Positions 21,246 to 43,932 of a stretch of DNA of 64,000 nt are shown here, piece after piece. The stretch is from Paramyrothecium sp. XJ0827 (Eukaryota; Ascomycota; Sordariomycetes; Hypocreales; Stachybotryaceae). The position numbers and the translations under genes were made by a program. Below the pieces are notes generated by a model. It did not search any database. It worked only from the letters and a program-made list of their open reading frames with translations, and had not been told where the DNA came from. The stretch lies in NCBI GenBank assembly GCA_020881915.1, contig JAJFPB010000001.1, forward strand, positions 4,154,001 to 4,218,000, read 5' to 3'. Position 1 is the first letter of the stretch; each line of letters opens with the position of its first letter.

Positions 21246-21788
21246 CTAAGAGGAACATTTTGACCTCGAAGTCTTACCATAGGCGACGACATCACCTTGA
21301 GTCCACGCGCCCATGGCCAACAGATCCGAAGGATGATCCGAGGACGAGATATCCGAAACCACGGCCCAAGCCCCGTCAAGTTCTATGCAATCTTCGGATG
21401 TGCAGCGCGATGTGGACTGAGGGTGTACGTAATTGCTATCATTCGATGGCAACCCTACGTCCGCCGCCAAGTAAGTGCTAACGGGCCCAGGGCGGTCCAA
21501 GAAGCTCAGAAGCGCTAGATTTTCGCAATTGAGTTTGTTGATGCTCTCGGGTTCCATGTTGCCCTGGAGGGTCTTGGACGGAGTGGTCGATTCGCTGTTC
21601 TGACTCGTGTTGGGCGTCGAAACGAGAGACCACGATTTATCATCATCGCCGTACTCGCAAGCTTGAGAAGATCGATGTATCGACGCCGAGTTCCGCTCAG
21701 AAGGTGACCGCCGGTGACGCGGGAGGCGGTTTGTTTCCCTCCTCTTGGAACCGTTGGGAGGCTCGTGACTTTGTGCTTGGCGACCCAT
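21246..21788 (-). CDS. member A of a four-copy orphan protein family
   Basis: Single-exon reading frame of 180 aa. I start it at ATG 21788 (context CACCATGG), not at the in-frame ATG 42 nt upstream, because the resulting start M-G-R-Q-A-Q-S matches M-D-H/N-Q/K in the three paralogues. There is no signal peptide or membrane span. The first half is polar and disordered. A short motif S-W-S-L-V-S-T-P-N-T-S-Q-N precedes a 73-residue core from N-L-A-L-L to G-A-W, which aligns without gaps to the other copies (31 of 73 identical to member C, counted by eye). The core includes V-H-P-Q-S-T-S-R-C. The tail contains a GTAAGA just before the stop, so a further C-terminal exon is possible. I do not recognise the family. 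A minus-strand TATA box lies 274 nt upstream. Confidence 0.6.
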   Translation of the reverse strand: MGRQAQSHEPPNGSKRRETNRLPRHRRSPSERNSASIHRSSQACEYGDDDKSWSLVSTPNTSQNSESTTPSKTLQGNMEPESINKLNCENLALLSFLDRPGPVSTYLAADVGLPSNDSNYVHPQSTSRCTSEDCIELDGAWAVVSDISSSDHPSDLLAMGAWTQGDVVAYGKTSRSKCSS

Positions 21789-22055
21789 GGTGCGTTGAGC
21801 GAGGGGCGAGGAAGGTTTGTCAAGTAGCACGACCTTTCGAAGGGGCTGGGCCGACGACTGAATCTAGTGAAAGGGAAGTTTCAAACCGTAGGGGTCGCTC
21901 TTAGGGTTGAGAAAGAAGTGGAAGTTGAACGAGAGGTGTGATGGGTGTGCAGAGTGCATAGAGTAAGTGAGGAGAAGAAGTGATAGAGCTGCTTGTGAGG
22001 GATTGTAAAGTTGGTGTGGAAAGCATCCCTGGTGCAACCGGGGAAGCAGTGGCTC

Positions 22056-22062
22056 TTATATA
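22056..22062 (-). promoter_or_regulatory. TATA box of member A
   Basis: On the minus strand this reads TATATAA, 274 nt before the ATG of member A. It is followed by a C/T-rich leader with ACTTCTTCTCCTC-type runs, typical of fungal 5' leaders. The position agrees closely with the TATA boxes of members B and D. Confidence 0.55.
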
Positions 22063-23823
22063 GGGGGACGAGCTCGGGAGAGGTGACAAGAGGATATCAT
22101 ACTGGGCAAAGGGGCAGTAGGTCGAATGAGCTAGGGTGCAAGAGGGCAAGTATATCCTTGGGACTGACCGCATATGCTATCATGTCACATACATAATGTG
22201 CATCTGCAAGACAGGGACCCCCGAACCACTTGCGACGGGGCGAACTGCCGACAGATTTGGGGTGGCAGACATGGGATCTTGCCCGTTTTGACATGCAGTC
22301 CACTGCTTCGCCTTGGGTGACGCGATCTGCGGCCCCATCGTCACTTCACAAGTTGCGTTGCATGAGCGTGAGCCCCCACAATCCAAGCATTATTTCCATT
22401 TACAGGTTCCCGGCTGCCGCTGAAGGAAAAGGGGGAAGGGGATGTCGAGGAAGAGCGTTGCTAGTGCTCGGCTGGAGCTTGGCGGAGAAAGGCGTGCAGA
22501 ACAGCGAACCTGGAATTTGGAGTAGGCCGGGGGAAAGACGAAGTCCCGAGTGAGGAGAGCCGCGCTTGGACTCGCCGTGGCAGCCACTCGACGGGCGTGT
22601 CATGAATCTTGACGGGTGACGCGGCAGAAGCGGCTCTCATTTTGCAAAAAAGGTTGGGGTATGGGCATTCGATGTCGAGGTAGGGCCAATGGTCCTAGCT
22701 CATCCTCAGGTAAAACCTTACACTCAGCGGCTCTTGGTATGTCTCCGAGTGCGGGTGTTTAGGAGACGGGGGCGGGGGGGGAAGGGGGGAGATGAGGGTG
22801 GATGAGGGAGGACAACTGATCATGAATCAGGTTTCCTCTAATGTTTCCCGTCCTGTCACCAGCCTTGTCGCCGGGTGCGTCTCCCCGTTCCGGGTCGACT
22901 CGAGGCCATGATGCACACCCGATATGGTTGCTTCGCGCCACCGATCCATAGTTGTATGGGCTGTGGGGAGCGGCTCAGGGATGGGGCCACCGCACAGGGA
23001 TCTCCTGGCGAATGGCGAGTCGGGAGACAGGTCGTCTCGCCAGGCGCGCAGAACCCTGACAAGCTTGTCCACCCCGATGGTGGTCATCATCTTGCGGGCG
23101 GGCTGCGCGAATTGCGTCTTCTTACCTGGCTCAGTCCGCAGTATGCCTCGATAAGGCATGGTGCGGAGAAGCCGTAGAGCGGCTCCCCGGGTTCGAGAGA
23201 GGTCATCCGCTGGGCTGGCACCCTGATAACGGGGGCGGCATGTAAGTGATTGGACGTGATCTCTTGATGCGGCGAAGGTCCCTGTGCCTTCACCTAATGA
23301 CCCCTGTTTTAGTGGCTGCTTCCCCATGTCAGCTCTAACCTCGACACGAAAATCACCGTGCATCGCATGGCCTCACCGGTCCTAGCTGTTGTGGTCGAGG
23401 CTGGCACGACACAGCACAGGCATCACGCATTGGACGATGCATACGTGGTGGGATAAAGTAGCTCGGTCTGCTCCAAACGGGTGAACGAAGGAGGCAGAAA
23501 GAAGGGGGGGAAGAGAAGAAGGGGAGGAAGGGGAAGGGAAGAGGGAAGGGGGGGGGGGGTCGGTCGGCAACGAAGGAAGGTAGGACAGATTAAGGTATCC
23601 TGCCTGTAGCCGCAAACCGTAGCGTCGACTCGGCCGGATTCGTTCGAGAAGGTTTCTAGAAGCCCGATCTGCGCGGGCGTCGCCCGGATTGTTTGGCAGA
23701 GTCCTGGACCGGGGCAGCCCTGGAGGGCGCTCAGGGAAACGGCTGCAACTATGGACTACCTTAGCGCGCGACGAGGCCAGGGGACGGACGCCTCTTTCTC
23801 TGTCTTGGACCCCGGCTGTTGCA

Positions 23824-23887
23824 CCACAACCACACGCACACAACCACACACACACACAACCACACGCACACAACCACACGCACACAC
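23824..23887. repeat. CACACGCACACAAC microsatellite
   Basis: Imperfect tandem repeat of a roughly 14-nt CA-rich unit (CCACACGCACACAA and variants), about four copies. Non-coding simple sequence. Confidence 0.75.
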
Positions 23888-23954
23888 CTGCACACGGCAC
23901 GTACAGAGTAAGGTACCGTAAGGCATCGTGGGCTGACACGAGCCAGGCCAGGCC

Positions 23955-23979
23955 GAGTTGAGTTGAGTTGAGTTGAGTC
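23955..23979. repeat. (GAGTT)n short tandem repeat
   Basis: Four perfect GAGTT units followed by GAGTC. A pentanucleotide microsatellite in non-coding DNA. Confidence 0.8.
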
Positions 23980-26900
23980 GTCGAATCATGGTTCGTGACA
24001 CAAAAAGAACTTACCCACCAGCCTCGACCACGGGGGGCCACCTCATCGGCCTTATCTGACGGACAGATGCAATCGGGTACGCGTCACATCCGGTAAAATG
24101 TCCACAGGTCCGCCTTGCACGCACACGCAACCCTCACGTCACGTCACGTTGCGTTCTGCCGAAGTCTTGTTCACTCCCTTGCTCGCTCCCGTCCCGTACG
24201 CGTAGGTGTAGGCTCAAGCGTGCGTCTGGGCGAAGGATCACCATCACCTAGGCCGGCCATCTTTCAACGGGCGCTTGGACCCTGGGGCCGCGTTGAACCA
24301 GTTGCGCTATTTTGTGAAGCCTCATCTGGTTCGCTAGCCACGGCAATGACCTCGCCTGATCATCCAAGCAACCCGGCATATCCATTTTCGCTTGCACCGT
24401 CGTGCGTGCTGTAGGCCATGGGGTGACGGGCGCAGTGTGAGTGTCTCCCTCATCCATCCCTCCCTCCCCCCCCGGCCCCTCTCCATCCAACAGGGATAAG
24501 ACGTCCCCTGCCACCACCCCATGACTTCCAGCCGGCTTCTGGAAGCCCGTTCGGTTGATGCCGCCGACCGTTCCACAGCCTCGACGCGAAGGACGAAAAT
24601 GAAACCCCCAAGTCTCAACGCTGATTTTTCCTTGTGGTGGGCGGGCAGAGCCTCTCCAACTGCAGTCGGTGTTTCCAAACGAGGAACGGATGATGAGTCA
24701 ACCCACCCACCCACACCGCGGACCCCCGAACTAGCAGCCTCACTCATATGACATGCCGCCATGTCATCTCGGGGAACCATCCGCCATGCAGGCTCGTCAT
24801 TGTTTTCCTAGACACGACCCTTCCTGATGACTGTCAAGGAGGGTAAACATAGAAAGATCAACCTCGATTTTAATAGCAGTGCGTGCGCCACTGGCCAGCG
24901 GATGCATTCGCTCGTGTCGACGAGGCCGTCGCTGACGTGCCGCTGAGAAAATGCGTGCGGAGGGTCCCTCAGGGACGATCTAATCCAGGAATTATGCGGT
25001 AGACTTGAAAAGGCCTGTGGTTTGTCGCTTATCTTTCAGCAGCATGTGTCGCTCCTTCCTATTCGTGGTGTTGGAGCCCACACGAGGACTCGGGCCCTCC
25101 TCCGAGAATCACAAACTCTGCTGTGACCCTTTGCGGGCTTTGTGGCCCTTTCCCGGCTTAAGAAGTTAATCTCCACTGAAGGCCCTGAACGGAACTCGTA
25201 AGCAATCTCGTCCCGGGCCCGGGGGGGGGGGGGTTGAAGGCATGCGAGAGATTGGACGGTTTGATATGCTGCATCCGATGGCTCTACTGCTTCGTTGCTT
25301 GTCGTCGTACAATTGATGGGGTGAAAAGTCATACATTATGCTCTCAACCGCCTAGATGTGCCCGAGACAAGTGATGTGGTTGTGAATTATCTTGCAGGTG
25401 TGCTATTCATCGACGCCCCTTTTTTTGAAATCTTCAAAGCGCAACGATGTACGCATTTTCTTTCCAGTTGTTCACGTTCTCTCGCAATTTTCGAACCAAA
25501 ATCGACAAATTTCTATCAATCAAGGAAGCTGGACCTGTCTCTTGGGCCTAGTCAGTGCTACAATCTCAAGCCTTTGTGCTGCCAAACCCCTCATCAATAT
25601 CCTTGTTGTTGAGCTCGTCATCGAGGTCTTGTTGTCATTGGGATCAACATCGCCAGGACTGTGACCCCCGGATCTTGTCATTAGACCTTTAGAACCCGAA
25701 TGACTCGTAGACCTTAGCGGCGGCGCTGCGCTGCGCGGAAGTCGGCGGGTGGCAAGGGTGGATTGAGTGCGCTTCGGGGTCATGCCCGTCACTAAGTAAC
25801 CGTAATAGTAGAATCTGCCAAAGTAGCTGGCTTAGTATCATGCGAGGGTCTTGCTTGATGTGGAAACCGACCTGTGCAGGATGATCAAGCACGTGATGAT
25901 ATCAGAGCCTTAACGTGGCATCCTCCCATGTTGTTGTGACGCCGAAAGGAGAAAGTCTTCCCACTTCCATCCCGAGAATAGGAAGCTTGTTCGGGGCGGT
26001 GATTTGGGCTGTAATCACTATGGCGAGATTTGCGGCAGAAAAGGGGTTGAGTTGGAGAACAACAAATTTCTATGCGTCCCGAGAGATGGAGGAGCTCCAA
26101 TGGAGTATTCGAGCATGAAGATGCTCGGCGTTCAGCTTCTCGAAAGGAGTATCGACTTGTAAGAGTGTTGGCAACGACACGATGGGGAGGCAATTTGGAA
26201 AAAGCATCAAACATCCCCGGCTTACACAGATGATTTGAGCCCTCGTTAGGGTCGCTTGGGGCGACCTCTTGATAAACGCTTATAGCATACAACAACGGGG
26301 AGATCACAATGGACCATGAGCCAGAAAGCTGGACCTGAAATGACTGAGGCCGTGGTACTCCACGGGCAGTGCTCATGTTGTAGTCATTGGAGCTGACGTT
26401 GATGGAGGCTAGCCATTTATCTCCTTGTGACAGCCCTTTTAGGAAAAGTTCGATGCTGTATGAATCGGTGCGAACGGTGAGGGCTGCCGAGAAGGAGGAG
26501 CATTCCCAACACCCGTACCAGCGTCACATTTACGGAGCCCATTAAAATGAGCATCGTAAAGATTGTGATCCCTTCCCAGTAAAGCATTGTCTAATAACCT
26601 CGGTGGCGCACTAGCTATTGCCGCTTGAATCCTTCGACCTGGCTCCGGTAAGCATCGTGGAAGCTTGGGGAAAGCCGGGTGTCTCTCGTCCCAGTGCCTC
26701 AAAAAAGGCCAGCTTCTAGGACTGGGTTCATGTGGAACCCCCGTGAAGGCTCTTGTCATCGGCCAACGTATCTACTCAACACCTTCGTCATCTGTACAAG
26801 TAAGCTCACCGAGCAGTGACCTTACGGAGGCGGACGATGGATCCGCCACCAGATCCGCGTTGGAACCATCTCCGGCCGTGGGCTCCGTCAAGCCAGCATC

Positions 26901-29330
26901 CTCCCACCTTGTCATAGCTTTCGTTCATCAATGTACTCCGAGAGGAGACAACCGAGGTGCATTGATGAGCCACGAATCCGTGCCAAGCTAGCGAGAAGTC
27001 CGACAATGGCCATTCTTGTGTGAGGTCTTCATATACGCTCACAAGAAGTACACCGGCTTTGCTTCCGGAGGGGAGTCTACTTTTCTTTTCTTCCTCTCCA
27101 TTTTTACAAGCTTAAACAAACGCAGAACATGTTGCTTCGTCGCAGAGGTCTCGGTGCACATTCCCGTCAGAAGCTAGGAAAGATCAGGGAAGTGTGTTTC
27201 ATTGGGCAGCAGTTCTGAAGTTAATCTGTAAGGTGTCCTGCGATCACAGTGTCTGAGCCTCGTACCTGAACGACTTGAGTCCTTCACATTTACAACCATA
27301 TGTTCAAATGATCCCCGCCGGGATTCCTCCGTCGAGCCGATCTATCCTCCCTAGTTCATGCCTGATTGTGTGAGAAACATGCAGAAAGAGTCGCAGAATT
27401 GTGGAGGGCACCAACACAGGCTGAGGATTTGCTGCTGGAGGAGGGATCTCACTCGCCTCGGATATTGACCGAAGCACCTTCGAATTTCTTTTTTTTTTTT
27501 TTTGGTGGGGTGCGGTGAGGGTTGCCGAGATCCAATTGCAAATAGACAAGCTGACACTGGGTGTCCCTCATCGTAAGCAAACAGACCCGCAAGCATGCTT
27601 AGCGAGGCTGATCGAAACCATACCGCGCGTCGGAATGGTGGGTTTGAAGGCGTCGGCGAAGAATCGTGGGTCTGGCCGGTACCGACCAGGCGGCTCGCTT
27701 CCGCCTCCTGAGCCCCTTGGGGAGTCGTCTATTGGCGGTGCCTCTAAAGTGGACCGTCAGCATCCCTCCCCATGCTCAAGAGCACATTAACGCCCGATTC
27801 GCAGGTAGCAATAAGCCACGAGTTCTACGGCCATACTGGGGTCATGCCGCACCAGGGCGGATAGATGGCTGAGGTTACGCAGCGGTGCACTGCTCGTTGT
27901 GGTGTGGGATCGCTTGATGTTGTTCGAACAGGGAAGCTTATACAGTCTGGCGGAGTGGAGATTCTTCTTTCCAATCCCCAGGATCGGTGATCTTCCGCTT
28001 CCAAGTCAAGCTAGTTTCTATACCCTCGTCAGATCGCTCATCCGACGTGTCTGGCGATCAGCCGTTAGCCTCAGTCGGCCGGAGGGTCTCCTTGGTCGCT
28101 TGGAACCTGGAACGAGGTCTAGCTAGGACTACTCTGTAGAAGGCTTAGTCCCGAAGATTTGCGAACATACCAACATGCACAATCTCTGAAGGAAGACTGG
28201 CTTGCGGTTCCGTAGCCTCCTTATCCTTGTTCCTCTCCACAGGGTGTCGATGTGGTGCTGGGATTGGGTGTCTTGGCGGACCCTGCTTCACGCAACAGGA
28301 CGCTAACCCTCGCGGGGCGGGAAGTCATTCGGAAGAGGGAGAAACAAAGAGAGAAAGTCCTTGGCCTGGACTATATCTCGCACCGCCTGTCCACGAGAAT
28401 CCTTGTCGTCAATCTCGGTTAACGTAAGTCTAGAGGCTTTAAATCCCGGCTTGCCAGACTGACAACGCATCAACTGCAGGGTTCAACGCCCCGTGTGAGT
28501 CGGTTTGGGAGGATCTGTTCCGGTAGACGTGCTGGGCTTGGTGCTTGCCGAGCAATCGCACGTTCTAATTACAGACCTTGGCTTCCGTAGCGTTTTACAA
28601 GCGAATTTAACGCTTCGGGAAATACCCCATTCAGTTGGAGGTTCGAGCAACTCGTCAAGAAACAAACCCAGATGTTCGAGCACCACGTTGCCCGCATGGG
28701 GTTACCAAGGACCTAAAATAGAGATGGATCGAGAATCACGGTCCGCGCGAAAACGTCTTATTTTTCCAAATTTTCCTTTGTTTTCTCTGTAATTGTTTTC
28801 TCTTATTCTCATCGATTGAGATGTCGGCTCCATTGGATTGGATGGGGCGTCTTCCCCATTCCGTGGGTTTGAATGTGTCGCACGATTATCAACGACCGGG
28901 AGGGGTGGGCCGGAGGGGTGGGGACTCATAAAGAGGGTACGGCTACACCCCTACGCCGACGAGATTGTCATGCATTTCCTGCACTAAGGCAACATCCCTT
29001 ACGTTACCTTACCAAGCCTAAGCCATGTTTTCTTTCGACGCTGTTGGCTTGCTGGTTTACGTCAGGTACACCAGCCCTTCCTCTTCCCGAGGGTGAGCAA
29101 ATCTGATCAATTCTACCTTTGCACCTACAAAGGCCTCCGGTCCTGGTGAGTTGTACCGTCCATGACAACCGCACAGGGGTCATCCTCATGATCCTGGTTC
29201 ATCCCGTCGATTGTACCGAGAAAGGATCAAAACTGCCCCATATTGTTCGTTGCGGCGCTGTTGGTGCCCGTCTTTGTCATGTCACTTCAACATTTGCAAT
29301 TGAGCTCACGTTCTCTCGGCTCGGACCATT

Positions 29331-29426
29331 GATTCGATACAATCGAGTTATTTCGCGTCTGCTAGCTTTGCCATTCCTGCGCTTGGATTCTCTCGCAACT
29401 GCAAAATGACTCGATTGTATCGAATC
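29331..29426. repeat. 26-nt inverted repeat around a 44-nt loop
   Basis: The left arm 29331-29356 begins GATTCGATACAATCGAGT and the right arm is 29401-29426. The arms are reverse complements at 24 of 26 positions; both mismatches are C/T transitions. The unit is 96 nt long. It could be a tiny MITE-like relic or a stem-loop. No clear target-site duplication is seen. Confidence 0.7.
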
Positions 29427-29909
29427 TTGAATCTTTCGTGAGTGGAAGGTGCTCAAGGAAGAGCCACCCGTTTACTCATCTAAAATAACGTCTCATTTTG
29501 GTGCAAACAGTCAGTTCCCTAATTGAGAATGCCAATCGGTTCTTTCCTGGTGATTCCGCCACCACTCACATCGTTCACGCGAACTTGACTGCTTGGACCA
29601 CAAGAAACGAGATAATTTTATTGTAGTGTTGCTGTAGGTAGCTATTATTTGCACTTTATGAATGATAACGTAGCGGTGTATAATCGTGATGGGAAACGAG
29701 AGCCAATGCAGCATCCGTGTCCGCCGCGCATTCGTTGTACAGGAGCACTAATGACAGCCAAGAGATGAAGGGGAAGTAAGTGTGTAATTAATACAAATAC
29801 AGAAACTAGCTACTTGACAAATACGTTAGTATACAAAACCAGATATTATTCCACAAAGACAATGATACACAAGATCACCTTAGGTATTGCTCGAGGTATG
29901 GCGCTCTAC

Positions 29910-30449
29910 TTAAGGCGAACTCATTGACATCGTATGTTCGTTGCCGTCCGAAGCTATTTCCTGGGTCCACGTTCCCACGCCGAACAGGCTGGTGGAAGTG
30001 TCGAGGCAAGAAGCCGAGGGACACACATACCAAGGCTCTCCCAGGTCCACGCTGGCGTCGGACAGGCCCTGCGATGCAGTTGCGTTGTGAACATGTGCAC
30101 TACCGTTCGAAAGGGGGACCTCGTGCCCTATGAACTGTGTATTGATTGGCTCAGTTCTATTCATGCGGTCCAAAAGCGCGAGATTGGACGGGTTGAGGTC
30201 GTGGTCGGGGTTCTGAGTTCGGTGATAGGTCTTGCGTATGTCGTGTCGAGCCTTTGAGTTATCGTTGCTTGCTACTTCGGCTGCTGAGAGGAGGCTAAAC
30301 GTTTCATCCTCGGTCTCGGGGGTTGAGGGTGGTCCGGCATCTATGCCGCGGACGTGAAGAGAGTCAGGCTGAGATTGCTGAGGATCACATTGCGCTGTCG
30401 TCTCCGAAGGAATGTCAGGGGATGGAAGATTGTGCGGTTGATGATCCAT
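29910..30449 (-). CDS. member B of a four-copy orphan protein family
   Basis: Intron-free frame of 179 aa starting M-D-H-Q-P-H-N. The N-terminal third is polar and Pro/Ser/Thr-rich. The motif T-F-S-L-L-S-A-A-E-V-A-S-N aligns with W-S-L-V-S-T-P-N-T in A and W-F-F-V-P-A-P-D-T in C. From there to the end of the core, members B and C align without a gap over about 112 residues. The 73-residue core (N-L-A-L-L-D-R-M-N-R ... V-H-N-A-T-A-S ... D-L-G-E-P-W ... G-T-W) has 29 of 73 identities with C. No signal peptide, membrane span or known catalytic motif is visible, so a soluble intracellular protein is likely. The gene has its own TATA box and pyrimidine-rich leader. Function unknown. Confidence 0.65.
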   Translation of the reverse strand: MDHQPHNLPSPDIPSETTAQCDPQQSQPDSLHVRGIDAGPPSTPETEDETFSLLSAAEVASNDNSKARHDIRKTYHRTQNPDHDLNPSNLALLDRMNRTEPINTQFIGHEVPLSNGSAHVHNATASQGLSDASVDLGEPWYVCPSASCLDTSTSLFGVGTWTQEIASDGNEHTMSMSSP

Positions 30450-33400
30450 AACGAGCGTGGGTAGACCGCGAGATGTTTGGCTTGATACTGCCGTGGTGTA
30501 GAAGGCTTTGACGGTGCATAAAGTGGGCTATGAGAACAGTAGAGACTCTGTGTTCCACCTAAGTCGGCTGCTAAGCAACGTGGGTGCGTTCGAAGTGGGA
30601 ACAGAGGAAGCAAAGAGCTTAGAGTGCGAATGAATCGGTGCTTGGTCTTGATCTCAGGCAAGGCTGGGTGCAAAGGCATGATTTTTGTAAGTAGGGGATA
30701 TGGAGTCTTTATAGAAAAGGTAAAGAAAAGAACAAGAACGAGCGTTCAAAATGACCCATGGAGGCCATGGAGTGAAATACAGTGGAAGGCTGGACAGAAT
30801 CATGTCGACCCAGGGGGGAGTTAGCCCCACTAACCCAACGCAACTTGTACGAGGCTCGCTGCTAGAGTCAAGGTCCTGTGCTGCCATCCACACCCCTTCC
30901 CATCATTTAGACATCTCATCCCATCTTGATATGCTGCAGTGGTGGGATGAGATGCCAAGCATGGGTGGAGTGGATCCATGTGCAGAGAGGGCGTGCGCGT
31001 GGATTCGAGCGTTTCACACCGCAACACGGTATATTTCCGACTTCCAAGAAAGGCCAGAGCTCTGAGGGTTGGGGGTGTGGCTACCCCATGTACTATCTTA
31101 CAGTCCGCCGCATGCCTCGAGATTTTTGTTGCCACCATGCTCATGAAACGGGCCCTCATCTACGGCATCATCGGATCCTACGGACAAGGGCCTTGCCATG
31201 TAGCAAGGCGAGGGTTACACTCCACGGTAGTGTGTGTAAGTAGTGAGAAGCGATTGCCGGTCTCTCCAAGCGCAACCTGGTCTGGTCAAAGGTATCCGAC
31301 TCCCCGCCAAGGCCCGGCCCGGTCGAGCGACAAGCTGCAAGTCCTCCACATGTCGTGGGTCTGGAACAACTTGCAGCTTCTGGCTCACGTTAGTAGCTGG
31401 CTTATCTTGTTGTCACGTATTGTACCCTTAGTTCTTGCTGACGGGCGGCCTTTGTCTCTTTCTCTCCTCGCCTTTTTCTTTATTCCAGTGACCCCTCGTG
31501 ATGATGCGGCGACCCCTGTCTGCAGTAATTTAGCCTGCGCCCCTGCCCTGGATGTCGTAGGGCGAGGCAGGCGGCCCTCTCTCTATTCGGGTTTGATGCG
31601 ATGGCCGCTCGCGCCGGAGCAACTGGCTTGCCTCTCTGCCCTGGAGCGGGTTGATTGGTTTTGGACGAGCCCGGCATCGTTTGAGGTAGGGCACCCTTGA
31701 CGACTGACAAGGCGAGGTACGCACGACATGCCCGAGACTAGGCCCCTGGCTTGGCCTGGACACCAACCCGTTCCGGATCAATTGACAACGACTCCATGTT
31801 TTGTTGCGACAGTTATCTTTTGCCAATGGTCTAGGGGCAAATGTTCCACAGATTTGTGCTCGTCTCGATACTTTCTTGCCTCGCACTGTCCAGAGCGCAT
31901 CAAGTTGTAGGCTGTCTCATTTTTTATCGAGCAGAAGCGACAGCTCCTTTCGCACTGGTGTTTACCCAGTCTCCATACAATCCCCTTAGCTCAAATGTAG
32001 TGAGGGGAGCTACCGCAAGTTCTGGCGGAGTCAAGTGAGTTGATCCCCCGTGTGGGGAACGTGAGTAGGTGGACACACAAAAAGCCAAATTGAACCTCTT
32101 CCGTCCGCCTCACTGGACATCACATCACGTCCCAGGCACCCTGGAGGCCGCACGACGACGCTGTGCGCGGCCGGTGAAGGGATTTTCGAGGCCAAATTTT
32201 CCCAAGTAAGTTGGTCTGATAGTCTGCCTTGCTGCTCGAGCGCCCGTGCTCACGTTGCCGAAAACGCCGACAAGCTCCACCTTGGCACTGCGGACGAGAT
32301 AGATTTGAAGGATGTCTGGATGTAGATTGCATGCGCTGAGCAATCAGGATCGAGAACATCAATCAAGGTCACGACGCTAGAGCAGGACGCAGAGAGTACC
32401 TTAGGTATGCAAAAGGCAAGGTATGGTAGGGAGGGGTAGTTCGATGAAGCGGTGACGCATGTCCATTTCGGTCCCTCCAGACCTTCGTGACGGCGGTAGG
32501 TAGCCCATCTCTCCTCCCCCCTGCCCCCGCCTCCCCTGGCGCGGGAGGGTGGGGGTGGTTGCGCGCATCGCTCATACCACGAGTCACTTGCCCCTGGCAT
32601 GAAAAAGCTTCCAAAGGCAAGGGCCGCGATGCATGCCGAGCGACGCTGCGCAGGGCCCGGGGAGGGGGGCTCGAAGATCACAAGAACAAGGCCCTGACCA
32701 GGGTCCTCTGGCCGATGATACCACGCGCTTACTATGTGTAGCACATAGCAAAGGACATTTGAGGGCCCCAAGTTTAGTCTTTCAGGTATCAGCATCATAG
32801 GTAGTTGGCAAGGATCGTCGTCGTGCCCACGAGCAACAGTCGATTCAGCGGTGTGACCATCCGTAGCAGGTGGCTTCCACACCACCGCTTTTGGTTAATT
32901 TCTTCATACTCGGACATTATACCCACCGCCCTTGGTTTTCTTGCTTACCACGCCAACTCCACAACCCTCGGCAATACGCGTTGTTGTCGTAGTGGGAAAT
33001 GAGAGGGCTTCAAGGCCCCCAAGGCAGTCTTTCTTGATACGCGAACGTCATCTCGAGCAAAGGAAGCACTCTCGACGCGTCAGCTTGTCGCTTTCGGAGT
33101 GCTTGACGGGCAGAGCTGTAGGGCTGGTACCAAGGTCAGGTAAATGGCGTCCTCTGGCAGCCCCACAGTCACAGCGGCGTTGCGGTGCAGATGTGTTCGT
33201 ACCAGTACTGCTGCTTCACGCCCCACCACGTATGGTGTCAAGGACGCACACCATACATACTCGAAGCAGTCTCTGGGCCGCTCTGCTGGGACACGCCGAA
33301 GATAGCACCTAGAAAGGGGGCTTGAACCATTCTCCCTTGCGTTTCGTTTGGAGCGCCTTGCAGACCCGCGCATGCGCCGTGGCCACCACTCGAGATTAAA

Positions 33401-35672
33401 TACAACTCGCCAGGTCCAAACGCATCGGGGGCTACGGAAGATTAATGACTATGTGTTTTGGAAAGCCGCATGGCCTGGAAAACCGTGAGGTATCCCGATG
33501 GTTTTGATGCCTGGTACGCCAAGGCTGTGTCCTCTTTGTAGTAATCGTAGGTCCTCCGCCCTGGAACGAACAGTACTCTGCCCCTGTTATGGTCCGTTGC
33601 ATGGGCTCATACATCTTGCTTACGCCCTCGCCTCCGTCTCTCACTTGCAACCAAGGCTGCTGGCGCAGCCTGTTGTTTCGGGCTTTGATTGATGAGGACG
33701 GGAACCCCACCGTCTCCATCATACAAGCTCGGATAAGGTAACTAACGTTTTCGCAAGCGTAGAAACAGAGGAAGGGAGAAGAGGTGTGGGACTTCGGCTT
33801 CCAATGCCACCGAACAAGGGGAGGTGATGACAGGGGGATCCCTGCGGCCACGTGGCGGCAATAAGGTACAGGACACTTGCTATAGGGGCGCGCGGACGGG
33901 TAATCCGAAAACCAAAAAGTATCCTTCCTTTCGCTGTCCATCAATGTCTCTTCAACATCGATCATGCTCTCAGCCGCAGCGCGCACCACTTGTGCGAACC
34001 ATTTCCAAAGGCGCGATTGTCTCCGTCAACCCACCTCTGATTCCACCGTGCTTTCTTACTCGCCAATGGGCCAAAGACGAAGGTATCAGTGCCATAATTT
34101 GCTTGCTGTGAGGTACTCGAGATCGGGCAAGGGCCAACCTCCGGCTCTTCTCGATCCATCGTTGCCATGTGGCACGAGACTGGGGTAGCTCGGGGTTCTG
34201 CACCGCATCTCACGTCATCGTTGTCTTTGATGAAGGAGATGCCAGCCCTGCGAGGGTTCTCCTTTGCCCGCAAGGACGGCTGTTTCGGTTTTGAAACCAT
34301 CCTTGGTTTGTTTCTTGTTTGAGCCCGTTGGGTTGTTGGAGGTGTAACCAGAGGTGCTCGAAGAAGTAGTCTACAGGCCACTGCCAAGCCATTGTTAATC
34401 GAACCGCTGATCTTTTCAACACGAGAATTGGTCCTCGGGAGACAAGCTACGGGCTACCCAGCCTCAGCCCTCAGGCTCAAGCAAGAGGCAAAAGCGACGC
34501 CATTGACAAGGCTCCCCTGATAAGAGGGCACAGGAATTGGAGAACCCTAACAAATGATCAAGTTCAAGGCACGCGAGGCCTTTCAAAGAAGACCATTTGC
34601 AAGGATCGCAAGGGATTGTCCGGCGGTCACTGGAGTAGTGCTCCCTATTGTGGGTCCCCCCCCGAAGCCGTCTGAATCACCCCAGAGATCTCTCCTTCTT
34701 TACACCTTTGCATGAGAAGGCCTACCGAAGCCGCTCATGGCTCCAGTTTTTGTCGGCTGCTTTGTAGAATTGGGTTCTGCCCACATCTCAGAAGTCATAT
34801 CATGGGAATCCTCCACCTTGGGATTGTATACCACATCCGAAGGACAAGAAGGGGTTCTTTGTGCAACGTCTAGCTCTGCCATGAGGTGCCCTAATTTGTT
34901 CAGGGGAGGGATCACAAGAAAGCCGGCACACTGAATCCTTGCAAAGATGCCGGAGCAAAAAAGTACCTTAGCGCTAGATTCCGGTTGCCAAGTGACGACT
35001 CAAGCGGCGCAGGGCGAGTCGAGGTAGGGTGAGACTAATATGACAGTCCTAGATGCGGTGGCTTCATCTCAACATTTGGACGATTTTCATTATGAATGTG
35101 ACCATGCCAGTATAGTCCAGGGTCGAGTGCTCCAGCAGGCCTAGCATCCATGACACTGGCAAAGGAGCATTGAACAGGCTCCTTTTGACAGTGGAGCCCG
35201 TCTGAGGCAAGCCACACCGTGCTTGTACAGCTGCATTGAGTATGAGTTCCGGCATACATGTATTCCCGAAATACACACTGACCGCTTCCGAGGTAGCGAG
35301 TATTGTGATGTGCTGGCCGCTCTTGAATGTCTACAAAGTCCTATAGCCGCGATCGTTCCACGACCCTTAGTCACAGAGGTCCAAACCAAGAACAGGACAT
35401 TCGTTGTGCAGTGGACTTCGGAGTTCTCAAGGAAGAGCGAGAAGGGAGGTTGCAGGTAAGAATACACAATTGCCTCTTGCTGGGGTTCTAGAATGCAGGG
35501 AGGCATATAGCGCGCCCGGACAGCCTATCGAGATTTTGGAGGTGGGTTGGGCAACGGAACACAATTCACCAAATGCCCCAAGCTCGAACCCCTTTTCACA
35601 GTTTTCAGGATATGGAAGCACCAGTCTGTCAACTTGAGACACGAAATGACGAAACCGCCAACTCCTGTTGCA
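30450..35672. other. gene-poor stretch between members B and C
   Basis: The promoter of B occupies the first 300 nt or so. No further gene is supported. Minus-strand frames near 33432-33989 and 33962-34387 have plausible composition but no recognisable domain, overlap each other and lack a shared start or splice pattern, so I do not call them. Confidence 0.4.
30707..30713 (-). promoter_or_regulatory. TATA box of member B
   Basis: On the minus strand this reads TATAAAG within TATAAAGAC, 264 nt before the ATG of member B. Member D has the same nine bases 265 nt before its ATG. Confidence 0.6.
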
Positions 35673-36254
35673 CTATACGTCAAGAAACTGCACATACTGC
35701 TGAGCGCCGACGATCCAGAGACAACGCGTCAACTCCAGCCCGTCATCACCATTGCATGTCTTTCCCTGTATCCAAGAGCCAAGAGAAAGCAGGTCCGATT
35801 CATTATACGAGCGTGATACTGCGGCGAGCAGACTCCATGGTTCTCCAAGGTCAGAGCAGCTGTCTGATCTGCAGCTTGATGTGGATTGGTGATGAACCAG
35901 AACGCTACCCTTCGGTCGAAGCATTTCGCGTCCCACCAAGTATTGGTTTACAGGATCGGTCCGGCCGAGGCGATCTAGGAACGCGAGATTTGTTCGATTG
36001 AGTTTGTAATCATCGTCCCGTGTTCGAGCGTTTATCCTCTGATTGTCGAATCGGACCGCTGAGGGGTTGTTCTTCGATGTATCTGGGGCCGGGACGAAGA
36101 ACCAACCTTCTGCGTCTAATGTAGAGGCAGACAAACGCGAGGCCCGTTTGTCGGTAGCGTGAGAACCGAGTGACGATGGCTGTTGATGGCCATCGTGGGC
36201 GCACCCCTCCAGGGCGACACTAGAAGATGCATGCCCCTGAGATTTGTGGTCCAT
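35673..36254 (-). CDS. member C of a four-copy orphan protein family
   Basis: Single-exon frame of 193 aa with start M-D-H-K-S-Q-G in good context (CGCCATGGA). After a polar N-terminus come G-W-F-F-V-P-A-P-D-T-S-K-N and the 73-residue core N-L-A-F-L-D-R-L-G-R ... V-H-H-Q-S-T-S-S-C ... D-L-G-E-P-W ... G-S-W, then I-Q-G-K. It is the most central member: 31, 29 and 25 of 73 core residues match A, B and D, with no gaps. The C-terminal tail after the core is longest here (about 30 residues) and is not shared. Unlike A, B and D, no good TATA box is seen about 265 nt upstream. Soluble protein of unknown function. Confidence 0.62.
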   Translation of the reverse strand: MDHKSQGHASSSVALEGCAHDGHQQPSSLGSHATDKRASRLSASTLDAEGWFFVPAPDTSKNNPSAVRFDNQRINARTRDDDYKLNRTNLAFLDRLGRTDPVNQYLVGREMLRPKGSVLVHHQSTSSCRSDSCSDLGEPWSLLAAVSRSYNESDLLSLGSWIQGKTCNGDDGLELTRCLWIVGAQQYVQFLDV

Positions 36255-39200
36255 GGCGAATTTGGGTTTTGGTCGCGGGAAGGAATTTTTGTGTAGTTAT
36301 CCCAATGCCGTATCGATGTAAGCACTTTAAGAGGAAGGGCAACAGTGTGTGAAAATTTCGGCAACTCGGAAGCCTTCGATGCTAAGCATCAAGAGGATAA
36401 TGATCCCATAAAACAGGAATGATGACCGACCAGTGACTCTGCACAATAAGGACACAGGTGATTGCAACGAAACTCAGGGGAACAAAGGAGGAGAGAGGGT
36501 AAGTACCTCCGCCTGTCAACAAGGCGTCATTCACATAGCACGGTCGCGGTGCAAAAAGCACCTGGATGCCCAGAAGGAAACAGACACAGGGGATGCATGC
36601 GTGCTAGACCGGGGAGCCGACTGCAACAGCTCGCCGGTTATATGATAATTCACCTTGCCGCCGAAATTACAGGCGCTCGGATTGTTGCCTGCATACTAGT
36701 CCACTGTCTGCCTAACCAAGTCCCGATGGTAACGAGGCGAAGGGGACCCGGCGAAGGGCCCGTTGGGGGCGGCCAGATTGGGGGGCTGTTCCTGACGAAT
36801 GATTCACACAACGAGAATCAATGAGATGTTTTGCAGCTGTACCTTTTGATCCCTTTGCACAACTATATTAGAAAGCATCGGTAGCTGCCAGAAGGTGGTA
36901 GCGGTTCGAGTCCAGAGGCTCACAATGCTGTAGGGCGATTGATCATTCCCGGCTGGGAAATAGCCTCCCAAGAGCGAGGACAAGGCTCCAGGACGCCCAC
37001 GCTCAGATGATTTCGTAGGCCCTGCACACACACCTGACCGAACTCGACGGGAACAGTTATGAAACAAACCCTGAGCGCCTCTTCCTCGTTCTATCTAGCC
37101 ACCGACGCGCATACGAGGCGCGAGAACTTTCTTTCTTGACAGGTCGAGGGGTAACTATAATCTCCGCGATAGACTGAATTGTAGTTTGTGGCGGGCAGAC
37201 GGCCGAGGCCTTCTCATTACGCGATAGCGTAGGAGGATACGCACAAGCGAATGTGGATGCATTGGGAAGACACCCACCAGCGGCGGTAGGACTGCATTAG
37301 TTTGTGAGGTGGCGTTGGCGGAACTTGGCAAGTCTTGATATTACCATGATGAGAGTGAGACAGAGAGAATGCAATACCTTTTATCAATCACCTTCACTCC
37401 CTGGTTAAGCCCAATGTGGTTCTCTGCGTGTGATGTGGTGTTTTTGTCGGGTTCTCCATGCCAGGACGCAGATAATCGCCTACGCAGCACCGTGCAACCG
37501 ACATCCTTCGGCATGTTCCTCGCTGGGATAGTCATACTGTGGAAATGTCATGTTTGCGACGTCAAACCCCAAGCACGACCGGGCAAAGGCAAGAAATTTT
37601 CAGCTTTGGGGTTAGCTGGGTAGACCGCACAAGCGATGTGTTGGACCCAAAGCTTTCCAAACGGCATAATGTAAGAGTTTCTGAAGAGCAGAGGGTGGGT
37701 GCTCCACCTCGATTTCTCCGACACAATAATGACCGAAGTGGCCAGCCCCTTTACCGTGCTTCAAAGTACCATGGTGACGATTGTTAGCCGTTCAGGAGCG
37801 AGAAGATGAGGGGGGTTGAAAAGCAACAACACAAGCAACCCCTGTTGATCGCTAGAAGCTCAAAACATGCCCTAAAACAGATGCGTGCATGGTCGGGTCG
37901 AAATTGACACAGGACCGGAGAAGGGCGTCGGGACGCACTTGGACACCCAAGTGAATCTGCCCTCATTTCCTAATCGGGCAAATCCTTCTCCATCCCAGCG
38001 TGTCAAAATGCCGGACAAGCTCAAGCTCGGCTCGCCCCGCGCTACCCGAATAAGGGGAGTGGGTATATCAATTGCCAACATTGGGAAACCTTTACAATTT
38101 CTTCAATTCTAATAACACATGCTTGCCGGAAAGGCAGGAAAAAATCCTGAGAAGCCTCATGTCCTCGTGAATGATTAGCGTATTTCCTCTTCAAGCCATC
38201 CGCAACGAAATGAGCGCTCATCACACAAACGTGAGGACGCATCTAAGCCTTGAGGCGGGCGAAGTGGTTCCAGCCACGTTAAACGTTCACCGCCTACTGC
38301 ACCCTACACCAACTCCGAAAGGCTCTGATCTCCTGAGGTGAGGTAGGTAAAGTACCTTACCGTACCTTATGCAATGGAAATTAGACCGTCCCTGGCCACA
38401 GTACTTACATCATAACCACAGTATTTACATCTTACATCGTAACCACAGTCCTTGCGTTGTAACCACAGTACTTACATGATACAATGTAGCCACAGTACTT
38501 ACAACATGACCACAGTAGGTACTTACAATTTGCCACAGTACCTGCATTGAAGCTCTTGCACACAATGAAGAAAACTGACCCCTTTGCGAAATAAGGCAAG
38601 AGGGTTTGGCCTGGAGCAGGCAGTGCGGAATGAGCTCGGCACTCCACATCTGCACCGGCCATCCATTCCCTTGTATCTCAGGACTTGATCCATGCACGAT
38701 CAAGCAGGCCTTGGTGGCGTTGGGGATCTCACAGATAGACGAAAAGCCGTCAGGAAGAAAAAGAAAAGGAAACGGGAGAGAAAGAAAAAAAGGGAAGGAA
38801 AAAGAAAGGGGGAAATGCGTTGCTGCCACACAACATGAAGGTGCCCGAATCCGTTTGGGCATGAGGCAGCGGTTTGGCTGCACATCACTGAGCGTGAAAA
38901 GGTCCACGATGTCTGGTTTCTTTTTCCAGATGTCCTGGCTTACGATGACGAAGTGCACCGATGTCTTGCTCACCCTCATCTCGCTCGTCACTTCTCAAAA
39001 CAGGTCACAGATGGCGGTTGCAAGAGAGCCTGGCGACCGATCAAATTATGCCGGCTCAGCCTTCGGTTCTGCCAATTAGCTCTCCCGGATGGGCCTCGAG
39101 TGAAACATCTCAACACTACGACGGCCATCGTTGCACACTGCTGCTCTGGGCAGCCCTGATTCTCAAGTCAGTGCTTCCTGTGCATGTACGCCCTCTGCGG

Positions 39201-42200
39201 GCGTGGCTTGCAAATCTGCTTGATGGCGATGCGCATTGCAATTTCCGGCCTCTGTCCCGTCTTGCTTAGCCATCGCCGCCTTTCGCCGCCCGCCCGCCCG
39301 CCCACTCCCCTCTCCTGCTGCTTCTTGAAAGCATGTGTGCTGGAGGGAGCGGATATACTATTGGCTGACTTTGCGCTTTGGTGACCTCGCGTCTTTAGGT
39401 TTCGGTGTGGTCGTACCCACAAAGCCAAGAACTTGCAGGACTAGTGAAATTCCCCCAAAATCCTTTTGTAACCTCACGCATCCCGTATTGCGCGCTAGTA
39501 AGTTGACAACCATATGGTTGCAGCGCTAGTCAAATTCCCGTGATGCGCTAGGAAGCTTCCCAGCGTATTCCCGCATTGAACACGGTTAAATGAACCGTAG
39601 TTCTGGCATCGCAGAGGCTTGCGGGCGTTGAGTGAAGCTCGACGGTCGTCAGACCTACCTTCACCAGGTGAGAAACTAAACGGTCAAACTGTGCGCAACC
39701 CGTGAGGCTCGCAAATCTGCCTCAAGGACAGCGAGAATTGTCTCCGTCCTCCCAAGAGGGTTTTCATTGTTCTCACTCGCGTGCGTCTGAAAGACAGATC
39801 GAAAAAGGACAAGTTCCTCAAGGCGGATGTGACTCGCGGTTTTCTCGGCAGCCAGCCCTGCATGCTCGTACAGTACCTGCATCCATGCGCCTCTAGCAAG
39901 AGTCGGTTCGATCTGTTACGGAGATCGGTTACGCCTGGTATTGGACCACCGCTAGCAGGCTGGGTCCGGGGTGGAAGCTTGGCTTGCGTAGAGATGAGCC
40001 TATCGTTGAGGAAAGGATGCCCGCCCAAGTCACGGTGAGAGAGAAAATTTTCTCCAACAAGACGTCTCAGGGCAGCCAACAGTTTCAACCCTTGCGAGCA
40101 TGTCGCAGGCCACGGTACGTACTTTTCATACCATACCCTGGCTGCTACCTGGCGAAACCTCCGATAGAGGTTGACTGTGGATTGCATGAGGTGGCCACGC
40201 TACGGTAAGGTACCAAGCTCAATCTCCGTAGCTCCGGTATTGACGTGGCCAGAGCAATCCATAACAGCAACGCGGGCACTTGACAGTGCTGCAACGATGA
40301 GCAGGTGGACCCCGTCTGTAGCTGCATTGCATTAGGTCCAGTTCCTGCATACACGGAACTCCAAAAAAGACATGACAGTCTCTGAGAAGTGGGCGCCATT
40401 CTTTGCTAACCGTTTCCTTTGACCTTCCCACAGTACCTGCTTACAAGAGATCAACCAATAGTAATAATGGAACCTCAACCCCAGAACACAATGATCTGTT
40501 CTATAGTAAAGACTTGCTACCAAACCCTTTTTTATTTTTTTTCTCTCTTTAATATTCAGACTGGGGCCAAGAAAAAAAGAGTGACACGCAAGGACGACAG
40601 GGAAGAGAAGCTCACAGGGGCCGTGCCGATATCCTGAAATGCCACAAGGGCATCCGACCCTGACCCTTGTGGGGGCTTGAAGATGGAATGGCAACGATGT
40701 AACGGTAACTCGCGCTAGTCACCCATCTTTCTTGCAGGGAAACAAACGGGCAGCCCACCCTCTCATCGGCCATCGAGCCTACTACCAGCTGCCGCGCTTC
40801 TCGCCAAGGGTAGATCTTGCTCCGGGGTTCCATGCTCGACCCATCTTCAGTAGATCAACCATTAGCGTCGCCCACTTCTGTTGACTAACGTTAAAAGCAG
40901 ACTAAGTCTGTCTTTTTGCAGATCTGAGATTTGGCTTTAACCACAAGCCCTCACATTGTCATCCACGTCACATCTCGTTTGGGTTCGCCCGTGGCATCCA
41001 ATCCAGGTTCCACGGAATCAGCGGGCTATCATGAACCTCTAGGTAATTCCAACATGGCCTCGAGCCGGCAATCTCGGTGGCTTCTTGCCTTTGAGTCATG
41101 GGTTTATTCGGTCCAGCAGGGCAAGGGGGCTGGTTCTTATCTTGCTAACGTCGAGGCTCTTGTGTCACCTAGAAGAAGTGGATCTTCCACACAAGGGTAT
41201 CTTACGCTTGCCCTGGTCAGCAACAACAGCTTTGCTTGCGCAAATCATCCGTGTTTTTTTTTAATAGCATGGATACGTGCCGGACCTGGTACTGCAGGGT
41301 ACCGGACTAGAGTCCACGCAGACCACTCGGCCATCCTAGAAATACCGAGATTGGCCACATCATCAGTCAACACCATTCAGCGTGAGAATGTTAGCATTTC
41401 TCTACAAGGGTCTCAACCCTAGGACATCCGCACCACCTGATACATGCGGTCGAGCGAATTTAACCTTTCGGACTGTTTGGCTCGTGGTCACTCAACCCAA
41501 GAGGGCCACCTAGAAGCGAATTCGCCAAGGTGTTGCACCCGTTAGATCAGCTCAATGCAAGGAAAACATGTAAAGCTTGACTTGGCAAGAGTTCTACCAT
41601 AATGACAATTGGGGAGGGGGTCTTCTATTATGCCTGACGGACCCGTTGATTGAACGCCGCCAGCCCGTAGTGCGCTAGTCCCAGTAGCCAAGCTGGCTGT
41701 GTATGGCGCGAACGTTGATCGCCGGCCCCGTTTACTGGCATCAAGATTGTTTGACTTCTGATAAGAAGAGGCCGTGCTGGCATTAGACAGCATTGCCAAA
41801 GACTTCGAGAGGCTGTTGAATGCCCTGTTGGTGGACAACTCCTCGCTGCCATCAGTGCTGATGGCAGATTCTCGACTTTTCCAGGGGCAAACACGCCTGT
41901 GACCTAGTGTCAAGTGTTAAAAACGAAAGTCACTCAGAAGCCTCTATTGAGGTGAACATATCGACTACAGTTAGGATAGGAAGACCATTGGTGTTGATGA
42001 TGGGTATATGCAGTATAACATCGTTGGTTGCGTCAGGAAAAGTAGAGTCAACCGTCGCAAGGGACGTCAGCTCACAGCCTACACAGCTTCAAGGAGACAT
42101 GGGGCGGGCAGAAAACAGTCTAATTCACAGATCAATGTCTGTGTTTGCACCATGCGAAGCTATACTACCCAATAAGCACGCGTCGTCGCCTGTGCTCAAC

Positions 42201-42204
42201 GGCC
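36255..42204. other. gene-poor stretch between members C and D
   Basis: No gene is supported. A spaced tandem repeat lies at 38396-38552, purine-rich simple sequence at about 38745-38815, and another CCACAGTACCTGC word near 40428. Minus-strand frames at 38425-38991 and 39684-40187 run through these repeats and look like chance. A Ser-rich minus-strand frame at 41542-41913, just downstream of member D, is open but unidentified. Confidence 0.4.
38396..38552. repeat. seven-copy CCACAGTACTTACA tandem array
   Basis: Seven units beginning CCACAGT start at 38396, 38416, 38443, 38463, 38490, 38510 and 38533. The spacings are 20, 27, 20, 27, 20 and 23 nt, so the array behaves as a 47-nt higher-order unit of a short and a long copy. 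The consensus is CCACAGTACTTACAT followed by a variable TAA-type end. No gene overlaps that I can support. Confidence 0.85.
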
Positions 42205-42708
42205 TTACATATCCTGATCCGGAACCCATGCACCTATCGCCATGAAACATAACCTCTTGTACGATGCTGATGTTGGTGTCAGTGCAGCCTGGTGCTCTTC
42301 CGCGTCGGGGCTACTGTCTTTTCGGCAAGGTGACGCGTGATGGCGATGAACAGCGACGCTGCTGTTTGGCGACGCGATGTCACGGCCCAGCAGGTGACTG
42401 TGGGCAGTGTCATCTTCATGCAGGCTGTTCAAGATCGATAACCTGGCTTGGCTGAGTGTGAGATCAGCATTTGGAGTGTGTAGGTTCGTGTCTTGGTCGT
42501 TGGCTTGTGCGACGGGGTCGTTGTTGTTGGCGGGTTCGACTACCGCATCGGTGGGTCCAGCCTCGCCGTCGACTTCACGAGCGAGGGGTAGGTCGACGTC
42601 CGCGACAGTAGTACGAGGAGTAGTTGGAGTCGGCAGGTGGGGGCCATCTGGGGCTGTGTTACTCTCGGAGACATCGGTAACCGGTTGATCTTGCGACTGG
42701 TTGTCCAT
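42205..42708 (-). CDS. member D of a four-copy orphan protein family
   Basis: 167 aa from ATG 42708 (context GACGAGATGGAC), start M-D-N-Q-S-Q-D-Q. The frame stays open upstream to 43188, but that part is pyrimidine-rich leader and includes the TATA box, so I exclude it. The N-terminal half is rich in Asp, Pro and Thr. The core aligns without gaps to member C over 73 residues (25 identical): L-S-I-L, L-L-G-R-D, V-H-R-H-H-A-S-P-C and G-A-W. The D-L-G-E-P-W motif of B and C is replaced here by an acidic/Gln stretch, making D the most divergent copy. The protein ends six residues after the core. A GTAAGG overlapping the stop leaves room for an alternative spliced end. Function unknown. Confidence 0.58.
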   Translation of the reverse strand: MDNQSQDQPVTDVSESNTAPDGPHLPTPTTPRTTVADVDLPLAREVDGEAGPTDAVVEPANNNDPVAQANDQDTNLHTPNADLTLSQARLSILNSLHEDDTAHSHLLGRDIASPNSSVAVHRHHASPCRKDSSPDAEEHQAALTPTSASYKRLCFMAIGAWVPDQDM

Positions 42709-42966
42709 CTCGTCAGCAAAAGGGGTTGGAGAGAGGGTGTAGGTATCTAAAGCAGCAGCTGCGTAAAGACTTGTCGGTGAACACAGTAGCTTGGAGGATA
42801 ACAAAAACTCAGGCAGCTTCAGTATGGGCTTTCGAGAGGGACAAAGCCTAGAATAGAGCGGTTGAAGGGTTACAGAAGACCTGTATAAGGGCGATGGGCT
42901 GTTATGGTTGAGTCCATGGAATACATTAGAGGGGGAGAAGACGCGCTTGAGTCCGGAGACAAAGGT

Positions 42967-42973
42967 CTTTATA
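42967..42973 (-). promoter_or_regulatory. TATA box of member D
   Basis: On the minus strand this reads TATAAAG within TATAAAGAC, 265 nt before the ATG of member D. Member B has the same nonamer at 264 nt. A long C/T-rich leader separates it from the start codon. Confidence 0.6.
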
Positions 42974-43932
42974 CGTACAGATGAATTTCGAAAAAAGCAT
43001 ACAGGAACTAAGCGTGAAGGAGAAAAAAGGGACGTCGTGGGTACGGAATTGGTACATCTGTGTACATCTCGTGGACCAGGGCTCGACAACAACAGATGGA
43101 CAAGAAAATGTTTTCGAAACTTGGCACCGGTACTTGGACCTGGTGGCTGCTGTCTGCACACCCTCCCAGATTTAAAGATCTTATCCAATCTGACAAGACC
43201 GAGATTGTAAGGATGAAACCCAGAAGGGAGCCGGCCGATCGCATGTTTTTGGGGGCCTCAACCCTGGAGCTCAGTTCTTAGCAACGGCCGCAGGAAGTGT
43301 AGTTTCGGCTACTGCTCTCTCAGCCTCTCTCTTCTTGTGGATACTAGCTACAATAGCTTGCGTCTCAATCAAGGGTTAGAAGACCAAAGCCTACTATTAC
43401 GCAGAAACACAGAGACAAACCCCATGCCTACGCAGCAAGGCAGAAGAAGCATTCCTCGGTCCCTGACGCTATTCAGAGCGAGTGCCGGTCTATAGATAGG
43501 AACATGGCTCATAGGGCAGTAGCACACATGGGCAGGTGGGTTCAAGGCCAGGCATTCGCCATCCCATCGGAGGCCCATGCGACGCCTCTACAGGATGGCC
43601 CTGGCTTAGGACCACACGTGAGGATCTCTTTCGGCCTTTGCCACCCTTTCGAATTTGTCACACAAGTGCCGAGCAACTAGCGAGTCCAATGATTCTCAGG
43701 TTGTCTGCTGCAGACGCAGGGTCAGCTATCTGATAGGCGGGGCCGAAGTATGCCAGTGGTTGCATGATGCGGTCGGCTCGAGGTGCATCAGCCAAGGAGC
43801 CGGGTTCTTCGTTGAGATGATCGTTGAAGCTCAAACATTACCTTCGACCGACCTGCTAACCGTAAATAAATGTTCCAAGCTAAGCTGGATTCACCATCAC
43901 GCACCACGGATAAGCTGGAGCTTACCTTAGCA
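42974..43932. other. non-coding stretch upstream of member D
   Basis: No supported gene. The left edge belongs to the promoter of D; the rest has only short, overlapping frames. Confidence 0.4.

Follow-up and report, generated by a model that had tools for sequence, protein, structure and literature searches.

A tandem array of four diverged, domain-less paralogues in probably gene-poor DNA of Paramyrothecium sp. XJ0827, tentatively read as disordered motif adaptors or regulators

Lineage-restricted paralogues without a known domain are a familiar kind of gene, and orphan fungal gene families of this kind have few detectable homologues, small size, and fast evolution. According to one study, many of the seemingly lineage-specific fungal genes can be accounted for by a failure to detect homologues (PMC7660931). 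From our analysis of 64,000 nucleotides of Paramyrothecium sp. XJ0827 (contig JAJFPB010000001.1, positions 4,154,001 to 4,218,000; hereafter the window), four genes, A to D, resemble such families in these respects; unlike orphan families in general, they are four divergent paralogues in a row, with a recoverable core and, in three of them, a common TATA position. The nearest described sequence is HJFPF1_00904 of Paramyrothecium foliicola, an unnamed hypothetical protein of 178 amino acids (aa) which is 59% identical to A, similar in length, and has the full set of nine invariant core residues as well as the N-terminal-half (N-half) patch described below; it is the only member found in P. foliicola (by word-limited searches), against four copies here. 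In possible mode of action, though not in descent, the nearest known systems are autophagy adaptors with an LC3-interacting region or Atg8-interacting motif (LIR/AIM), with which A, B, C, and HJFPF1_00904 have in common an aromatic-x-x-aliphatic core, an acidic or S/T lead, and a poorly structured region. A to D differ from those adaptors in having no Pfam domain and, for D, no motif. Our overall best explanation, to which we give a probability of about 45%, is that A to D are tandem paralogues encoding disordered motif adaptors or regulators which have diverged in their motifs and promoters. The genes and their cores are as follows.

21246..21788, minus strand: gene A, 180 aa, single exon; related to HJFPF1_00904
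29910..30449, minus strand: gene B, 179 aa, single exon
35673..36254, minus strand: gene C, 193 aa, single exon; most central member, with a longer, unmatched C-terminal tail
42205..42708, minus strand: gene D, 167 aa, single exon; most diverged member, first two W/F anchors lost
21285..21536, minus strand: 84-residue gap-free core of A
29949..30200, minus strand: 84-residue gap-free core of B
35754..36005, minus strand: 84-residue gap-free core of C
42208..42459, minus strand: 84-residue gap-free core of D

An earlier inspection, the sequence-only reading, had described these four as intron-free, minus-strand members of an unnamed family, and its description held in every particular that we could recompute: each frame runs from ATG to stop at those coordinates, the proteins begin with M-D in B, C, and D and with M-G in A, and a 73-residue core aligns in all four without gaps, with 31 (A), 29 (B), and 25 (D) identities to C. 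Nine residues of this core are invariant in A to D, exactly as claimed (L2, L5, S29, V32, H33, S38, S59, G71, and W73). The remaining pairs have 23 (A-B), 17 (A-D), and 16 (B-D) identities of 73. MAFFT extends the gap-free block to 84 residues, and its BLOSUM62 scores lie above 20,000 of 20,000 shuffles in all six pairs (z 6.6-12.9). Before its ATG, the frame of D continues without a stop for 549 bp (42208-43257). D was taken as 167 aa because the start M-D-x-Q is shared and the frame of B is closed 78 bp upstream; on the same grounds a longer D protein was set aside.

In the profile hidden Markov model (HMM) test that the sequence-only reading had named as one that could refute the family, leave-one-out profiles recovered every copy (A 159.6, C 149.8, B 103.0, and D 59.3 bits), the highest other of 6690 frames in 264 kb scoring 7.9 bits, with the reservation that the profiles were built from an alignment made with all five rows and column placement is thus mildly circular. 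A still scored 71.6 bits when both A and HJFPF1_00904 were left out, and a profile of these two alone recovered C (89.2), B (59.2), and D (14.1 bits), the next frame reaching 8.1. Comparisons of 6-kb pieces around the copies by blastn gave matches at corresponding sites inside the open reading frames (ORFs) for A-C (E 4e-14), B-C (3e-7), and C-D (1e-4), and the sole A-C match with E <0.01 falls inside the ORF; there was none below E 0.1 for A-B and none at E up to 1 for A-D and B-D. The 100% matches in this output are overlaps of the compared pieces, and a 35-bp C-D match lying far upstream in both (E 0.007) was dropped, being purine-rich sequence compared with the complexity filter off. In a tree, the sole fixed grouping is A with HJFPF1_00904 (99/99); the branching of the other three, where long branches meet, is tentative.

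The codon pattern also bears out the earlier claim of selection on the protein, together with the core identity and the leave-one-out recovery. Codon position 2 is the most conserved and position 3 the least in six of six pairs, with identical bases at positions 1/2/3 of 50/55/38 in A-C and 45/59/30 in B-C (of 84 codons); position 3 is near saturation, its chance identity being 0.25-0.27. The proportion of nonsynonymous differences (pN) is below that of synonymous differences (pS) in all six pairs. The proposed check of the nonsynonymous to synonymous rate ratio (dN/dS; Nei-Gojobori, approximate) was run and gave 0.17-0.39 in four of the six pairs, at high dS (1.38-3.77), the ratio being undefined in A-D and B-C where dS is saturated. 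These comparisons point to an old family under purifying selection, and we regard A to D as almost certainly a real, selected protein family.

Codon usage by itself would hardly have exposed it. With a coding score trained on 24 long ORFs from the same region, including the gene of the UDPGP family, A scored 0.020, B 0.071, C 0.024, and D 0.070, against 0.018 for the best of 16 other ORFs in the interval between the UDPGP and patatin genes and -0.001 for the best of 500 random frames; the patatin ORF itself is equally weak (0.006).

The family is very small as far as our searches reach. In the genome searched (51.8 Mb in 15 contigs), single-protein searches with B, C, and HJFPF1_00904 returned four loci each, all of them here, and those with D returned three of these four, among the best first-look candidates, which are the only ones such searches score; with HJFPF1_00904 as query, E was 3.7e-60 for A, 7.8e-21 for C, 1.3e-11 for B, and 0.00131 for D. 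Outside the genome, the wider HMM search suggested by the sequence-only reading was sparse in its yield: a profile of A to D against 5.8 billion proteins found one relative, HJFPF1_00904 (E 1.5e-45, 92% coverage), whose homology to the family is full-length. Searches of the protein library with A plus HJFPF1_00904 found nothing beyond HJFPF1_00904, and the core of C matched nothing in it, missing even HJFPF1_00904; these searches need exact common 5-residue words, so that absence elsewhere is weak evidence and a wider presence is possible. On this sequence comparison the family is not private to this genome, as A has a relative in P. foliicola. The claim that no named domain is present stood, since Pfam-A gave no family for any of the four proteins at E up to 10, and the four-row profile matched no PDB chain at E up to 10. 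No prior description was found in the protein and structure libraries or in the portions of the literature covered by our searches. As regards an origin from a transposon or virus, we found four loci only, all here, and no Pfam match, which does not bespeak such an origin.

We then compared the upstream regions, in which the following features were found.

22056..22062, minus strand: TATA box of A, with its first base 274 bp before the ATG
30707..30713, minus strand: TATA box of B, with its first base 264 bp before the ATG
42967..42973, minus strand: TATA box of D, with its first base 265 bp before the ATG
30872..30981, minus strand: element upstream of B (-532 to -423), resembling the D element
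43136..43246, minus strand: element upstream of D (-538 to -428), resembling the B element

The motif TATAWAR occurs at -274 (A), -264 (B), and -265 (D), with no other site in these 1200-bp upstream regions and none in the 1200 bp upstream of C. There are 54 such sites on both strands of the 264 kb, and an agreement of three of four promoters within a 10-bp span arose in 0 of 200,000 simulations which assume independent sites at the average rate. Most TATA motifs of Aspergillus nidulans are found 30-45 bp before the start site (PMC4046813), which would place the starts of A, B, and D some 220-245 bp before the ATG. Judging from these sites, A, B, and D very probably have TATA promoters of their own. 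Further upstream, B and D have in common an element of ∼110 bp, whose score of 58 is the top of 12 flank comparisons and exceeds 200 dinucleotide shuffles (<=46); none of 1500 random genomic 1200-mers reached it against B (maximum 56) or against D (maximum 50). The element was detected upstream of neither A nor C. It was dropped as a candidate exon, the alignment being broken by many short gaps and the frame scores, which have no null, being low. A weak B/D match (31183-31280 with 43414-43507, score 44), placed almost on the diagonal of the element, was dropped as a second conserved stretch, 44 being the mean of random segments, and so was a downstream B/D match of score 42, which one of 200 shuffles reached.

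What the proteins might do was approached through structure and motifs. The structure prediction proposed earlier was carried out with AlphaFold, once with A first and once with C first; it yielded no fold in either case, and the models are too poor for the fold comparison that was to follow. Mean predicted local distance difference test (pLDDT) values were 36.7 and 34.5, with no residue at or above 70, and predicted template modelling scores (pTM) were 0.15 and 0.14; the only feature common to both models is a short helix at NLALL, to which the first adds two short strands. Serine plus threonine make up 17-24%, and the grand average of hydropathy (GRAVY) is negative, in all five proteins (A to D and HJFPF1_00904). 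On these predictions the products are probably disordered. A small globular core domain, with a fold missed because there are five sequences only, would agree with the gap-free 84 residues, the invariant L, V-H, G, and W positions, the NLALL helix, and the short strands of the first model; against the model confidence and composition just given, it appears fairly unlikely. Conservation is gathered in islands: the very start of the protein, an acidic-aromatic patch around residue 50, the segments L-x4-NLALL and S-x-x-V-H, another W patch further on, and the GxW end. The N-half patch lies as follows.

21621..21644, minus strand: N-half patch in A, acidic residues then WSLV
30288..30311, minus strand: N-half patch in B, acidic residues then FSLL
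36093..36116, minus strand: N-half patch in C, acidic residues then WFFV

This patch, [DE]-x-x-x-[WF]-x-x-[VL], is present in A, B, C, and HJFPF1_00904 and lost in D, and its aromatic anchor falls in one column in four of five rows, whereas as many as three never coincided when the N-half was shuffled 3000 times within rows. D is without the aromatic of both W patches; in the second, B keeps the W and is without the aliphatic residue of the LIR core, and HJFPF1_00904 is without an acidic or S/T lead. Conceivably, these proteins are canonical LIR/AIM adaptors that bind Atg8 by the N-half patch and, in A and C, by the second W patch too, with a role in selective autophagy or as its cargo. In favor of this, A, B, C, and HJFPF1_00904 have at one aligned position a W/F-x-x-L/I/V core directly preceded by acidic or S/T residues; the N-half patch fits the published core (W/F/Y-x-x-L/I/V), and LIRs sit in disordered regions (PMC7297954). 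The pattern is nevertheless loose, shuffled versions of these proteins averaging 0.34-1.53 matches each, and it is lost in D; we consider it improbable that Atg8 is the partner.

Two further explanations concern the nature of the genes themselves. Decaying, non-functional relics of one older gene would suit the long branches of B and D, the weak codon bias, and the absence of promoter elements in C, but not four frames open from a common start to the stop, the deficit of pN in every pair, or the TATA place kept in three, and we find relics very hard to credit. Effectors are frequent among small, lineage-restricted proteins that evolve fast and are encoded in tandem in gene-poor DNA, which would favor secreted, host-directed or inter-microbial products; the N-termini of A to D, however, are hydrophilic, with no hydrophobic signal segment seen by eye (no signal predictor was used), and there is no invariant cysteine, one column being kept in four of five rows. 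We consider effectors highly improbable.

In the explanation that we prefer, A to D are four old, tandem-duplicated, protein-coding paralogues of a fast-evolving and apparently lineage-restricted family, of which A, B, and D would each have a TATA promoter for their transcription and a leader of some 220-245 nucleotides. The products would be cytoplasmic or nuclear and largely disordered and may use several short linear motifs to act as adaptors or regulators, the working candidates for these motifs being the N-half acidic-aromatic patch and, in the core, NLALL, S-x-x-V-H, the second W patch, and the GxW end. The paralogues would then differ in the motifs retained and in the promoter, D having lost both W-patch aromatics and C having neither a TATA box nor the upstream element. 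As a statement about the proteins alone, a multi-motif disordered adaptor is tentative, at somewhat less than even odds given the models. Doubtful is the fuller proposal that an undescribed family of such adaptors has kept an ancient promoter layout (TATA at ∼-265 in three, the B/D element at ∼-480) that outlasted most of the protein sequence; under the same proposal B and D, the most diverged protein pair (16/73) and yet the one retaining the upstream element, might be a case of regulation kept better than its product.

Several observations weigh against our explanation. Codon usage is weak, A and C exceeding the best other ORF of the interval just narrowly, and a synonymous-only score (-0.001 to 0.017) is at most 1.4 standard deviations from random frames (mean -0.019, standard deviation 0.026). 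The top random segment against the promoter of B comes near the score of the B/D element (56 and 58). Low pLDDT from a five-row alignment could reflect scant data instead of disorder. Motif counts per protein match those of their own shuffles (P 0.19-0.58), so that only the common position of the patch is unusual, and common descent explains part of that. As the patch is absent in D and the promoter elements in C, neither is required by all members.

Standard annotation would scarcely detect these genes, which are short, have weak codon bias and no domain, and have hardly any homologues that can be detected. Provided that the genes are real and old, to which the comparison of paralogues points, gene-poor fungal DNA can hide selected arrays that are visible only by such comparison. 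The array also lends itself to a clean test of which diverges first in disordered paralogues: the motif content, which D has lost, or the regulation, which C has lost.

Duplication has left possible traces outside the genes, in a pair of blocks of ∼330 bp.

35092..35418, strand not assigned: block past the 3′ end of C that resembles 40186-40515 and is probably left over from an old segmental duplication
40186..40515, strand not assigned: block past the 3′ end of D that resembles 35092-35418

The blocks score 74. A first null of 12 random segments per comparison reached 54-70 in some other interval pairs; the interval holding both retained matches was retested against 250 random segments, with a maximum of 56. 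No near-identical copy of either block was found in the genome, and a search of the 264 kb did not turn up the B/D element or the C/D block a further time (best others E 1.4 and 2.3). Four flanking DNA pieces searched against the genome gave self-matches only and missed their similar partner pieces too, which speaks just against near-identical copies. By their sequence, the C/D blocks and the B/D element look like remains of old segmental duplication, some possibly kept for regulation.

The setting is likely to be gene-poor, as the sequence-only reading had it, with partial support. Between the UDPGP and patatin genes lie 17 other ATG ORFs of at least 120 aa, the longest of 240 aa, and a Pfam scan of 10 of these gave no match. 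A scan of eight window ORFs named UDPGP (UTP-glucose-1-phosphate uridylyltransferase), a DUF3605 protein, a patatin-like phospholipase, and Leo1; a FolB-like protein scored 31.2 bits, slightly below the cut-off of 31.8, and three of the eight were without a match. This gene content, along with HJFPF1_00904, suggests a hypocrealean fungus. In a non-overlapping list, there is no ATG ORF of at least 400 aa in 16228-78295, from UDPGP to ∼14 kb right of the window, and there are 23 such ORFs in the two 100-kb flanks. A tRNA search found nothing, and Rfam gave no match above gathering in the whole window; in 34900-43500, at E up to 1, its sole match was Ysr197 (36290-36344, 20.3 bits against a cut-off of 167), which was judged to be chance. 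A patatin relic at 41.4 kb was considered and dropped, the best found being one 35-bp match; a direct repeat of 35 bp, 80% identical, joins 41427-41461 and 46761-46795, its second copy inside the ORF adjoining the patatin gene. An inverted repeat with 35-nucleotide arms, 83% complementary and spaced by 26 nucleotides, lies at 29331-29426, ∼0.5 kb downstream of gene B, and degenerate short repeats of the type CCACAGTACTTAC lie between C and D at 38395-38522.

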